From Actinomycetes bacterium (lineage in GTDB: Bacteria > Actinomycetota > Acidimicrobiia > Acidimicrobiales > Ilumatobacteraceae): a stretch of 64,000 nt of DNA. Positions 14,154-18,259 of the stretch are shown piece by piece (within the stretch, counting starts at the first letter, position 1; each line of letters opens with the position of its first letter). The notes below the pieces were generated by a model, which did no database searches, was not told the origin of the DNA, and saw nothing but the letters and a program-made list of their open reading frames with translations. The position numbers were made by a program, and so were the translations under genes. The stretch is from positions 186,001 through 250,000 of the forward strand of contig JAIOPC010000014.1 in NCBI GenBank assembly GCA_021414085.1, given 5' to 3'.

Positions 14154-15326
14154 CTAGAGGTAGTAGCCCGAGATATCGATGAGGAAGTGGGTGCTGCCGC
14201 CGCCGTTGCAGATGACGGTGAGTTGTCGGTTGGTGTTGAGGGTGAGCGTGACTCCGTTGGCGAGCGTTTGGCCAGCGTCGGACCAGTTGATGGTGGAAGC
14301 ACTCTCGACGGTGTTGCCGCCGGGGTTGATGGCGAGATAGCCGAAGCCGCCGACGGTGCCGGTGATGGTGACGTTCGCAGCTACCGCGGTGGCGCCGGTG
14401 GGGACGAGGTTCGGTGTCGTCACGTTGCCCGCGTTGTCGCGACCGTCCGCGACGGAGACGAGGCGGTTGTTGCCGGTTGCGAGCAGTCCGGGCGTTGGTG
14501 CGGCGGCACGTGAGTCGTACACGCGAGTGGGAGTGAGTGCGTGAAACGCACCAGCAGTACCCGGCCCGGCGAGCTTGCGCCACTTGCCGGGCGTGCCGGA
14601 TTCGTAGCAGAACCACACGTTGCCAGCGTCGTCGGTCTCTAGTGTGTTCAACGAGAACGGAGTCGCCCGGCTCGGGGGCGCAGTCGCACTAAACGCGCCG
14701 AGTTGGAGAGCGCCACGAGGACCTTGGCCGAAAACGCCCACCGCTCCGTAAGCCAAAACACCAGTCGCGCTGGCGCTGCTGCCCTGTACGCCGTTGCCAA
14801 CAACGCTGCGACCCCATACCCCAAAATTGTTTTCGCTCGAACCTTCGACCCCAACGCCCTCTGTGCTCGTGCCTTTAACACCACTGCTGTTGCCGTTGGG
14901 CCCGGTGTGGAGGCCGTAGACACCGGAGCCAACACCTGTGCAGTGGCCGGCGACGCCGTTGGTGAAGGCTGTGCTGGTCGCGTGGCCGAACACGGCGGGA
15001 CGGCCGAGGTCCGCGTGTGGCGCGGCGAGTCCCGTCTCGTAGCAGCCGAGCCCGTAAACCGTTGACGCAGCGGCAACCGCTATGCCAGTGGGCAGGGTCG
15101 CGGTGTTGGCAGAGACGCCGGCGAGCACCGCCGAGTTGTCGGTGGCGGCAACCGGATCGCTGGCGATCACGGTCGCGAGTCCACCGACGGCAGCCGCGCC
15201 GGCCAATCGCAACATGCTGCGTCGCGTCGTGACTTGTTCCGAGGGCTCCTGACTCTGGCCGCGGACTTGTGCTTCTAGTTCATCGATGCGGGCTCGTAGG
15301 GCGTTCAATTCGGCGATGTCGGTCAT
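14154..15326 (-). CDS. Tat-exported surface protein with GV-repeat and C-terminal beta domain
   Basis: 390 aa. A short coiled coil (IAELNALRARIDELEAQV) precedes a twin-arginine signal, TTRRSMLRLAGAAAVGGLATV, so the N-region is unusually long. Residues about 100-230 are Gly/Ser/Val rich with repeated GVxG turns, like beta-helical fibre proteins. Residues about 265-390 (RVYDSRAAAP, ATAVAANVTITG, GYLAINPGG, FLIDISGYYL) match a beta domain common on the surface of actinobacteria. Function unknown; extracellular. A 17-bp palindrome 35 nt upstream matches one before the neighbouring 61-aa gene, suggesting joint control by the nearby LAL regulator. Confidence 0.8.
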   Translation of the reverse strand: MTDIAELNALRARIDELEAQVRGQSQEPSEQVTTRRSMLRLAGAAAVGGLATVIASDPVAATDNSAVLAGVSANTATLPTGIAVAAASTVYGLGCYETGLAAPHADLGRPAVFGHATSTAFTNGVAGHCTGVGSGVYGLHTGPNGNSSGVKGTSTEGVGVEGSSENNFGVWGRSVVGNGVQGSSASATGVLAYGAVGVFGQGPRGALQLGAFSATAPPSRATPFSLNTLETDDAGNVWFCYESGTPGKWRKLAGPGTAGAFHALTPTRVYDSRAAAPTPGLLATGNNRLVSVADGRDNAGNVTTPNLVPTGATAVAANVTITGTVGGFGYLAINPGGNTVESASTINWSDAGQTLANGVTLTLNTNRQLTVICNGGGSTHFLIDISGYYL

Positions 15327-15360
15327 TTCGCCATCGTCGTCTAGACGGTCGACCGAGTCG

Positions 15361-15377
15361 TGAGTACCGGGTACTCA
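15361..15377 (-). promoter_or_regulatory. palindromic operator upstream of Tat-exported protein
   Basis: TGAGTACCGGGTACTCA is a perfect 8-1-8 palindrome ending 35 nt before the start of the 14154-15326 gene and touching the stop codon of the 61-aa gene. A sister site with the same TGAGT-N7-ACTCA frame stands at 15596, 36 nt before the 61-aa gene. On the minus strand both are followed by CGAC and then, 17 nt after the palindrome, a -10-like hexamer (TAGACG here). Confidence 0.6.
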
Positions 15378-15560
15378 ATCCGTCGCTCGGCGGTACTCGC
15401 CGGTGCGGTTGAGCGATGCGTCTAGTGCCAGTTCCAGTCGGCGAAGCTCTCCGGCGTCGAGGTTGAAGGCGCGCAGCGCTTCCACCGGGTTGCGACGAAT
15501 GGCGTCGGCGAACGATGGATCGCTAGTGAGTCGTGCGAATACGTCGGCCAACGCGGTCAT
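15375..15560 (-). CDS. small helical protein, Os1348/LigA-like
   Basis: 61 aa: a single helical domain with the pattern FARLTSDPSFADAIRRNPVEALRAF then LDAGELRRLELAL. This resembles small Os1348/NHLP-clan or LigA-type domains; homology is tentative. ATG 15560 is chosen; a GTG 9 nt upstream is possible. It lies between the LAL regulator and the Tat protein, with a 17-bp palindrome 36 nt upstream. Role unknown; it could be a regulator partner or a precursor-like peptide. Confidence 0.65.
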   Translation of the reverse strand: MTALADVFARLTSDPSFADAIRRNPVEALRAFNLDAGELRRLELALDASLNRTGEYRRATD

Positions 15561-15595
15561 GGCTGCCACCAAACCACAGTGCACACGTTGGGTCG

Positions 15596-15612
15596 TGAGT
15601 GTTCGATACTCA
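15596..15612 (-). promoter_or_regulatory. palindromic operator upstream of 61-aa protein
   Basis: TGAGTGTTCGATACTCA shares the outer TGAGT/ACTCA arms and the 17-bp length of the site at 15361. It ends 36 nt before the ATG at 15560. On the minus strand it is followed by CGAC and, 17 nt on, TGTGGT. It lies in the gap after the LAL regulator gene. Confidence 0.55.
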
Positions 15613-15631
15613 AAGCACCCATCAAACGCCG

Positions 15632-18259
15632 TTACGAACGATTGAGTACCTCGGCGATCTGGTCTCGTGCGTCGACGCCGAGTTTGATGAATATGCGGTA
15701 GATGTGGTTCTCGACTGTTCGTTCGCCGATCACCAACTGCGTCGCGATTTCTCTGTTCGTCAATCCCAGGGCCACGAGGCGCGCCACCTCGCCCTCGCGC
15801 GGCGAAAGCGGGCCAGCGTCGCGGCCGGCCAACAGTGGCGTGCGCACTGTGCCGCACAGCGCGAGAAGTCGGCCCGCCATACCGTCCAATCGCATGGACT
15901 CCTTGGCCGCTCCGCTCGAGCGCGCCACTCGAGCGCCCACGGCAGCGGCTTCGGCCGCATAGAGCACGGCGCCCAGTGACTCAAACGTTGCAACTGCAGC
16001 TTCCAGGTCGCGAACCGACTTCGACCGGCACGCATGAACGAAGTCGAACCGCGCGGCAGCGAGTCGGGCTCTCGGTCGCGGCCAGTTGTCCAAACCATCC
16101 ATGACATCGAGCAGTTCGAGCCGTGCTGCCTCGTGCCATGCCTCGGCAACATGTGTCCACTGCTCGTGCCTCGTTGCTCGCTCGATGGCCTCGGCGAGAG
16201 CCTTGGCGGCCGTCGCCCGATTGCCGCTGGCCGCAGCCACCCAGGCGCGACCGATATCGAGCAGAACCTCGTTGAGGTGAAAGCCCGACATGTTGTAACC
16301 CTCGAATCGTCGCAACGTTGCGAGCGACTCCTCGTTGCGACCCAACTCGGCTTGAGCGCGCGCTAGTCCGGCCGAGCACCATCCAGCGAAACCTTGTAAC
16401 CCGACCCCGACCCAACCGCGTTCCGCTTCGGCGAGGTAGCGACTTGCCTTCACTATGTCGCCTCGTATCGCGAGCGCCTGCCCACAGAGCATCGCGGCCC
16501 ACGCCCGTACCTGCATGGAGGGTTGCCGAATCGTGCTCGCGTACCCTGCCTCGGCGAACTCGGCTGCAGCCGCGACCTCGCCGCCGTGCAACATCGCAAC
16601 AAGTTGGATCGCGAGATGCAGGTTGGTGTCACCAAGGTGTCCGACCTCGTTGTCGACTCCCGACGCGACCGCAGCCACCGCTGCACCGCACACTTGCATC
16701 GCTTCATCGATGCTGTCGCCGTTGATCCCGGCGTTGCCAACCGCGATTGCGGCTACTAGGCGCACCGACATGTACGGATGGTCGATGAGCGGGCGACATA
16801 GACGCCACGCTTCCGGTAGATCGCCGTCGAGCATGGCGAAGACACCGCGCTGCGCGTCGAGAAAGTCGTGCCACGGCCCAGCGGGGAGGTCGGTCTCGTT
16901 GAGGTAGGCGGTGGCCGCTTGCTGACGCGAAGTCCACCACAATTCCTCGGCGACGCGTAGTCGCATCGCGGCTTGCTCCCACGGCGCGAGCGCGTGGTCG
17001 GCCGCGTCCTTCAATACATCGATTGCTTCGTCGTGGCGCCCGATCTCAGCGAGGCACCACGACGCGAGTAAGGCCGCTTCGATCTGTCCTCCCCGCCGGT
17101 AACCGACCTGCGCCAGCTCGGCCGCAAGGGGGCTGTCACCCATTGCGACTGCGCCACGGGCTGCCGTCAGCAGTTTCTCGGGCGCGATCTCGACCTCGCC
17201 ACGGATGTGCCACATCGCGTCTCGGATGGATTCGGCCGTTGCTGGTGATGGCTCGCCGCCTGCCGCGATGGCGTCCATTGCTAGGGCCAACTTTTGATAG
17301 ATGCGCATGCGCGCGAGCGCACCTAGCCGCGCACGGGTCAGCTCGCGATACAACGGGTGAGTCACGTCGAGTTGCAGCGGCTGCGACCCCTCTGTTGGCA
17401 GCGCTTTCACGACTTGCTTGCGTTCCAAGTGCTCGAGAGTGTCGCCGTCGACAATCTGTTGCACCAGCCTGTGTGGTAACTGGCCGGCGATCGCAAATAG
17501 TTCGAGTGCGCCGCGCTCGTTGGTGCTCAGTGGCGCCAAGCGGGCGAGTACCACCTCCTCAAGTAGCGGTGTTGCCGCCAACTCGCCATCGAAGCTCCAC
17601 AGCCGTTCGAGTCCGCGCAGTGTGCCTGCCGCCAACGAGCCTTCGACGAGTTCGCGCGCGTACATGGGGTTGCCTGCGCAGGCAGTGATCAGCAGTTGAT
17701 GCGATCTGCCGTCCAGCGTGCCGCCGAGCGCATGTTCGACCATGGTGGTGATGTCGTCGTCGGACAGTGGCGGTACGTCGATGGTTGCGACATCGGCTTC
17801 CTGTCGCAGCCGACTGACGGCCGCGGGCAACTCGCTGGTGGTTCTCAGCGTGCCCAGCAATCGCACATGCCCGGTGAGCAGCACTTGTTGCAGCACCGCC
17901 GCGCTGGCGTCGTCGAGCAGATGCATGTCGTCGACGACGAGAAGTGGATCGCCAGCTCCTGCTCTTCCGTCGGCACCGAGCGAACGCAAGACTGCGCCCA
18001 CGATGTCGTCGGTGGACTCGGACGCGATGAGTGCTGCAAAGGGTGCCAACGGCAAGTGGGCTGAAGCCGGGCTGGCTGCAACGCGGTGAACAACGACGCG
18101 CTTCGCGAGCATCCGCGTGGCCACCTCGCCAGCCAGGCGCGTCTTACCCAGGCCGGCCGCGCCAGCGAGAATGATGTGGTGGCCGGAGTTCAGTCGCTCA
18201 AGTGTCTTAACGACGAGCGCCTCGCGACCAACGAACGGCCAATTACGCGATGCTGCCAC
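15632..18259 (-). CDS. LAL-type LuxR family transcriptional regulator with AAA/STAND ATPase
   Basis: 875 aa, the large ATP-binding LuxR (LAL) architecture. The N-terminal NTPase has Walker A GAAGLGKT (about residues 33-40) and Walker B LLVVDDMHLL; a long helical, TPR-like middle follows. A C-terminal LuxR HTH carries LSPREGEVARLVALGLTNREIA and GERTVENHIYRIFIKLGV (about residues 812-870). Such proteins activate nearby genes on sensing a ligand; none is identifiable here. Two matching palindromes just downstream are the best candidate targets. 36 bp separate it from the inositol synthase gene upstream. Confidence 0.93.
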   Translation of the reverse strand: MAASRNWPFVGREALVVKTLERLNSGHHIILAGAAGLGKTRLAGEVATRMLAKRVVVHRVAASPASAHLPLAPFAALIASESTDDIVGAVLRSLGADGRAGAGDPLLVVDDMHLLDDASAAVLQQVLLTGHVRLLGTLRTTSELPAAVSRLRQEADVATIDVPPLSDDDITTMVEHALGGTLDGRSHQLLITACAGNPMYARELVEGSLAAGTLRGLERLWSFDGELAATPLLEEVVLARLAPLSTNERGALELFAIAGQLPHRLVQQIVDGDTLEHLERKQVVKALPTEGSQPLQLDVTHPLYRELTRARLGALARMRIYQKLALAMDAIAAGGEPSPATAESIRDAMWHIRGEVEIAPEKLLTAARGAVAMGDSPLAAELAQVGYRRGGQIEAALLASWCLAEIGRHDEAIDVLKDAADHALAPWEQAAMRLRVAEELWWTSRQQAATAYLNETDLPAGPWHDFLDAQRGVFAMLDGDLPEAWRLCRPLIDHPYMSVRLVAAIAVGNAGINGDSIDEAMQVCGAAVAAVASGVDNEVGHLGDTNLHLAIQLVAMLHGGEVAAAAEFAEAGYASTIRQPSMQVRAWAAMLCGQALAIRGDIVKASRYLAEAERGWVGVGLQGFAGWCSAGLARAQAELGRNEESLATLRRFEGYNMSGFHLNEVLLDIGRAWVAAASGNRATAAKALAEAIERATRHEQWTHVAEAWHEAARLELLDVMDGLDNWPRPRARLAAARFDFVHACRSKSVRDLEAAVATFESLGAVLYAAEAAAVGARVARSSGAAKESMRLDGMAGRLLALCGTVRTPLLAGRDAGPLSPREGEVARLVALGLTNREIATQLVIGERTVENHIYRIFIKLGVDARDQIAEVLNRS

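Follow-up and report, generated by a model that had tools for sequence, protein, structure and literature searches.

Conserved palindromic operators with a fixed promoter layout mark a small regulon linked to a LAL-type regulator gene in Ilumatobacteraceae

Two 17-bp palindromes in a 64,000-nt stretch of an Ilumatobacteraceae genome (Actinomycetota; assembly GCA_021414085.1, contig JAIOPC010000014.1, positions 186,001 to 250,000; hereafter, the window) are conserved operators of a small regulon, in which operator, promoter elements, and start codon keep a fixed layout. They precede the genes for a 61-aa protein and for a 390-aa exported protein of the twin-arginine translocation (Tat) type, next to the gene for an 875-aa large ATP-binding LuxR (LAL) regulator, and both the layout and the linkage to LAL genes emerge from the genome comparisons described below. 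We consider it probable that the palindromes serve as operators of a single LuxR-type transcription activator, most plausibly the adjacent LAL protein. That this protein is the binder, that it activates, and that transcription starts at the position proposed here are all likely readings of the sequence. The genome comprises 3.2 Mb in 18 contigs and is labeled G000; other genomes and fetched loci are denoted by G and L numbers, and contigs by C. Both operators and all 3 genes lie on the minus strand of the window.

Operator 1, TGAGTACCCGGTACTCA (15361..15377), has perfect 8-bp arms and stands 34 nt before the ATG of the Tat-type gene, its first 3 bases forming the stop codon of the 61-aa gene. 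Operator 2, TGAGTATCGAACACTCA (15596..15612), is a perfect TGAGT-N7-ACTCA, 35 nt before the ATG of the 61-aa gene. The original prediction for this DNA had placed two matched TGAGTN7ACTCA palindromes before these genes, each followed by CGAC, at near-equal gaps of 35 and 36 nt; we could confirm the palindromes, the CGAC directly 3' of both, and the near-equality of the gaps, each of which is one nucleotide shorter than had been stated.

The whole genome contains 4 perfect matches to TGAGTN7ACTCA and none to the reversed pattern that served as control. Two of the 4 are 235 bp apart at nearly equal distances from two start codons, and nowhere else in the genome does the core GAGTRN5YACTC have an ATG at such a spacing (control, 0). 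Random scatter of the motif, which would have spoken against the prediction, is not what these counts show. When up to one mismatch is allowed, 52 matches are found versus 43 for the control; degenerate matches are therefore mostly due to chance, and only the strict ones are informative. A third palindrome, on contig 12, lies 63 nt before the ATG of a lipoprotein-like gene. Another on contig 10 (G000:C10:207711; L002 5712-5728) lies where an alcohol-dehydrogenase-like gene ends, with a dnaK-like gene on its other side (both names assigned by eye); it was first taken as an operator and was rejected, as it folds like a terminator (z −5.5). Two near-sites with an intact core, C9:36343 and C17:6928, were likewise discarded, both being located inside genes.

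The arrangement recurs with every complete ortholog of the regulator found among the family genomes searched. A search of 221 genomes of the family with the LAL protein returned orthologs in 5 other genomes (44-68% identity), one of which (G012) ends at a contig edge before its C-terminus. The other 4 (G001, G022, G514, and G589) all have the operator in front of the small-protein gene, at 34-35 nt, where its absence would have counted against the prediction. It also precedes those Tat orthologs that could be read (G001, G514, and G589), and the exact 17-mer of operator 1 stands 34 nt before genes in G001, G022, and G596. In G514 and G589, the outer base of the operator is altered at one end (ACTCT or ACTCG), and the small gene and the LAL gene point toward each other; the Tat ortholog precedes the LAL gene and has an operator to itself at 35 nt, and a second operator stands before a divergent lipoprotein-like gene, at 34 and 36 nt. 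G001 contains 8 perfect palindromes versus one control match, and 7 of these, all of the TGAGTA form and located on 2 short contigs, stand 34-35 nt before genes. Targets in this genome are two lipoprotein-like genes, a third gene related to one of them (39% identity), the small gene, and, at a contig end, the first 26 codons of a protein whose start resembles that of the Tat orthologs. Two tandem Tat-protein paralogs (L042 1340-3525) each have an operator at 35 nt; the contig ends within the second of them. Across the 6 genomes with LAL orthologs, the core with its ATG occurs at 20 places, compared to one for the control.

To describe the promoter layout, we aligned 38 nonredundant sites from 15 of the 17 genomes scanned, each with an ATG at 33-36 nt that opens a frame of at least 40 codons. 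These derive from 100 oriented core matches, 54 of which lacked a qualifying start at 33-36 nt; 6 GTG-only sites and 2 near-duplicates were left out of the remainder. The most prominent feature is a T at position −7 relative to the ATG, present at 30 of the 38 sites and at 21 of the 22 that have a 34-nt spacer, while the highest count for any column in 2000 shuffles was 18. Across related sites, this T falls 28-29 nt after the palindrome. An A at −11 (19/38) and a T at −12 (16/38) are less well kept. Directly downstream of the palindrome, at +2 to +4, GAC is found at 21 of the 38 sites; with a 34-nt spacer this corresponds to −33 to −31, as in TTGACA. In the window, the −10-like hexamer GACGAT (15333..15338, minus strand) occupies −12 to −7 of the Tat-protein gene, 17 bp from the GAC-bearing −35-like hexamer ACGACT (15356..15361, minus strand), which overlaps the last base of operator 1. 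The −10-like hexamer before the 61-aa gene, TTTGGT (15568..15573, minus strand), carries its T 28 nt after the palindrome. The −10-like hexamers of the original prediction were thus borne out in their position.

Shine-Dalgarno-like 4-mers occur at only 4 of the 38 sites, and by this measure the sites lack a Shine-Dalgarno sequence, as leaderless genes do. The elements after the palindrome would form a weak −35/−10 promoter whose mRNA would start at the ATG, in which case the palindrome spans −51 to −35, with its center at −43 from this putative start. At the contig-12 site of the same genome, where the ATG is 63 nt away, the hexamer CACGAT still ends 28 nt after the palindrome, and a few hand-picked sites with a more distant ATG also keep the −10-like hexamer in place. 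The fixed distance would therefore seem to be a property of the promoter rather than of translation. A possible distal half-site, CGAGTACC (15392..15399, minus strand), lies 22 nt upstream of operator 1 and has one mismatch; an exact TGAGT at this offset is found at 7 of the 38 sites (1 in G001, 3 in G514, and 3 in G589). Since exact copies are confined to G514, G589, and a single G001 site, we kept it out of the main claim.

For a count across the family, the pattern TGAGTRN5YACTCA with an ATG at 32-37 nt was compared to its reversed form, and a LAL relative was defined by E ≤ 1e-25. Operator plus ATG was found at 52 places in 26 of the 221 genomes, and the control at 15 places in 15 genomes. 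LAL relatives are present in 30 of the 221 genomes, and among the 26 operator genomes 17 carry one (Fisher p 2e-11, with related genomes treated as independent), compared to 2 of the 15 control genomes (p 1). The association holds when only the 52 genomes of 3.0 Mb or more are considered, a LAL relative being present in 17 of the 18 with a site and in 12 of the 34 without (p 3e-5, kinship ignored). Places from LAL genomes also show the promoter layout: 36 of 42 have a spacer of 34-35 nt, two of the six spacer values allowed, versus 3 of 10 elsewhere, and GAC follows the palindrome at 23 of 42 versus 0 of 10. As a comparison, the 30 spacer values from 38 to 67 nt together gave 89 places, spread over 45 genomes, versus 48 for the control (our own summation), which amounts to about 3 places per spacer value; the two values 34 and 35 nt together hold 39 places. 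The palindrome without regard to a start codon is found 30 times in 10 genomes, and its control 9 times. Finally, of 48 LAL-like places, 30 have loci, and 10 of these contain a site in flanks of up to 1.5 kb (12 perfect and 6 core matches). These 10 include the locus in the window and its 4 orthologs; with those set aside, 5 of 25 remain.

A number of observations weigh against this reading. The spacing within the 38-site set is there by construction, the 36 of 42 places with two of six spacer values in the count across the family being the less biased measure, and the set includes doubtful members, such as the plus-strand site of L085, L089, and L100. A strict sigma-70 consensus scan of 15250-15750 gives no promoter; the case for one is comparative. 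Operator plus ATG is absent from 195 of the 221 genomes, 13 of the 30 genomes with a LAL relative have no such match, and 9 of the 26 operator genomes have no LAL relative (8 small genomes with one or two matches each, plus G522). The Fisher tests count related genomes as independent. No site was seen in the fetched flanks of 20 of the 30 LAL-like loci, one of which (G012) is cut before the end of the LAL gene. The enrichment of the bare palindrome is not found everywhere, with 3 matches versus 5 for the control in G526. At most 4 LAL candidates were scored per genome, so that other LuxR or LAL paralogs could be the binder. In the sample of the order, sites at 34-35 nt are sparse, being found in 17 of 397 genomes (24 places, versus 3 for the control). 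In G298 and G391 (L024 and L025), from other families of the order, LAL genes encoding proteins 37% and 31% identical to that of the window stand beside an Os1348-like small gene, and neither genome has a perfect palindrome anywhere; one half-site is left in G391, 35 nt before a GTG (counted by eye). A search for the LAL protein in the genome_contigs collection returned one distant relative, 31% identical, from Lentzea aerocolonigenes.

We propose that a dimer of GerE domains would bind the 17-bp inverted repeat, whose TGAGTR half-sites lie one helical turn apart, centered near −43. Bound there, the activator would extend into a poor −35 element (NGAC) and assist RNA polymerase in starting from a poor −10 element ending in the T at −7. 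Transcription of most targets would set in at the start codon or beside it, yielding leaderless mRNAs, and because of this the distance between operator and ATG would be fixed at 34-35 nt. The original prediction of one activator at the −35 position, with the LuxR-type neighbor as candidate, is supported by a geometry that varies between genomes by no more than a base or two and by the tendency to co-occur with LAL genes, which make binding and activation by this protein plausible.

The lux box overlaps the −35 element of its promoter. Its inverted repeat is centered about 42.5 nt upstream of the transcription start, in the excerpted account (PMC7585371). The arrangement proposed here resembles that of LuxR on this box in its GerE-type DNA-binding domain and in an inverted repeat that would be centered near −43. 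It differs in that the lux box is 20 nt long, whereas the element here is a 17-bp TGAGTA-N5-TACTCA, and in that the regulator has an ATPase-type N-terminus and no match to an acyl-homoserine-lactone domain in the domain scan. A protein of the same kind, SCO6993 of Streptomyces coelicolor, also has palindromic sites, which were footprinted, and represses antibiotic regulators; according to the excerpt available, its authors were unable to predict a consensus site (PMC9628970), while here one strict consensus recurs before exported-protein genes. In leaderless actinobacterial promoters, a TANNNT-like box precedes the start codon by about 12 bp (PMC3160421, in excerpt), and the candidate box found here stands at a similar distance from the ATG. 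Judged by the counts above for T at −7, A at −11, and T at −12 (30, 19, and 16 of the 38 sites), it is weaker, however, as if an activator were needed.

Several other explanations were weighed against an activating LAL protein. A real operator could be bound by another LuxR or LAL paralog, or by the 61-aa protein, with the LAL neighbor linked to it in some other way. Sites in genomes without a LAL relative at the chosen threshold, such as G522, and the several LAL-like genes in some genomes would fit this, yet the LAL gene is the sole recognized regulator among the window genes scanned, and sites adjoin LAL-like genes at the 10 of 30 loci noted above (5 of 25 without this locus and its orthologs). 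We regard another binder as unlikely, although it deserves to be taken seriously. More unlikely still is a repressor role, in which the LAL protein, bound to the palindrome, would block polymerase at −35. The overlap of the operator with the −35-like element would allow this, and the excerpted report on SCO6993 describes a LAL protein that represses its targets (PMC9628970). Both hexamers are poor, however, which suits an activated promoter, and the center near −43 is close to the position reported for the center of the lux box, which precedes the transcription start by 42.5 nt (PMC7585371, in excerpt).

The remaining alternatives would deny the palindromes any role as operators. Terminators or mRNA hairpins at gene ends could be suspected, since operator 1 overlaps the stop codon of the 61-aa gene and operator 2 follows that of the LAL gene. 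The operators fold no better than shuffled sequences, though (z −0.38 and −0.34, compared to −5.5 for the contig-10 palindrome), no terminator, in the sense of a stable hairpin with a T run, was found at either, and in G001, G514, and G589 operators are found between divergent genes, all of which makes this reading very improbable. Pure chance can be dismissed with still more assurance: while about 1.4 perfect matches per genome are expected by our own estimate (43 one-mismatch control matches over 31 allowed words), coincidence does not account for a place, a spacing, and flanking promoter bases that are conserved in other genomes.

The proposed activator is encoded at 15632..18259 (minus strand), upstream of the small gene on the same strand. 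It combines an N-terminal P-loop ATPase domain of the AAA_16 type (PF13191, 33.0 bits, cut-off 32.6, residues 8-127) with a C-terminal GerE/LuxR helix-turn-helix (PF00196, 53.6 bits, cut-off 23.5, residues 817-870). As both defining domains are present, the 875-aa protein is a LAL regulator. The 390-aa protein (14154..15326, minus strand, A of the ATG at 15326) has the twin-arginine signal RRSMLRLAGAAAVGG (found by eye), an N-terminal helical stretch, glycine-rich repeats, and a C-terminal IDxxGYY domain. It has no Pfam or NCBIfam match at E ≤ 1, its orthologs in G001, G514, and G589 are 43-68% identical, and its structure model (mean predicted local distance difference test [pLDDT] 37.5) is too poor for use. 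The gene upstream of the locus encodes a myo-inositol-1-phosphate synthase, before which no palindrome was seen by eye in the window; in G001, the gene for this synthase and a lipoprotein gene share one operator, 32 nt before the synthase ATG.

What the regulon controls appears to be mostly exported-looking proteins, including lipoprotein-like ones, along with the small protein and a recurrent 162-aa family. Among 20 loci around sites elsewhere, the target gene at 9 encodes a domain that resembles the Tat protein's C-terminus (blastp E ≤ 1e-3); in one of the 9 (L093), the ATG at 36 nt is not the start of the domain-bearing gene. By a simple hydrophobic-segment test, 23 of the 38 targets are exported or membrane proteins, versus 57 of 195 background genes (p 3e-4), a difference tempered by a cut-off of our own choosing that two Tat orthologs fail and one small protein passes. 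The 162-aa family, whose members start with MPIPSPEQYRQTY or a variant of it, follows the same operator in L083, L086, L097, and L099 (genera g18 and g21), and one member scanned has no Pfam match. Of 10 other targets, 6 have no match at E ≤ 0.1, and 4 have only matches below the curated cut-off. In G000 itself, the regulon looks small, comprising by its sites the genes for the 61-aa and the 390-aa Tat-exported protein and the contig-12 lipoprotein-like gene, which would be leadered. The predicted small regulon controlling a surface protein is thereby supported in outline and refined, in that lipoproteins and other exported proteins belong to it as well. Separately, a sister operator with longer arms (TGAGTAG-N3-CTACTCA and variants) was observed before exported-looking proteins in L047, L049, L050, and L090; it lies upstream of a LAL gene in L090 and of a LAL-looking gene (by eye) in L049.

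The 61-aa protein (15375..15560, minus strand, A of the ATG at 15560), which in a first search had matches in 3 of 61 genomes, its own included, is predicted to be all-helical (structure model, mean pLDDT 75). Its N-terminal helical part shows weak sequence similarity to precursors of ribosomally synthesized and post-translationally modified peptides (RiPPs) of the Os1348/NHLP and SonA types. Os1348 is described, in the part of the source available, as an 85-aa precursor linked to antibiotic activity (PMC7726476). Unlike the Os1348/NHLP precursors, the 61-aa protein stays below the family cut-offs (NF038399, 28 bits versus 40; TIGR04509, 14.9 versus 34), none of the 9 neighboring genes scanned encodes a RiPP modifying enzyme, and the G022 version is fused to other parts; the similarity to SonA-type chains is also weak (best E 0.013). 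In the G022 fusion (L006 7994-9025), the small domain is joined to a hydrophobic segment, to a stretch that looks SH3-like by eye, to a linker rich in threonine, and to a further domain that is shared with a lipoprotein-like gene of G001 (39% identity). Speculatively, and with considerable doubt on our part, the 61-aa protein might be more than a target: it could be the signaling partner of the LAL ATPase, a helical domain that binds the regulator and sets its activity, with the G022 fusion relaying a signal from outside. If this were true, exported proteins would be under the control of a feedback loop with a peptide-leader fold as its sensor.

Among the matches listed, our literature searches returned no paper on the TGAGTN7ACTCA motif or its regulon. 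The regulon appears to be new, while its proposed activator is of a familiar type. It provides a concrete operator-promoter code for a LAL protein, with operator, −35, −10, and ATG in fixed register, which is notable in a class where no consensus site could be derived for at least one footprinted protein, SCO6993, according to the excerpted report. The code would allow exported proteins that are switched on together in such bacteria to be predicted from sequence. The connection of a LuxR-type ATPase with a small protein resembling RiPP leaders and with exported proteins thereby becomes directly testable.

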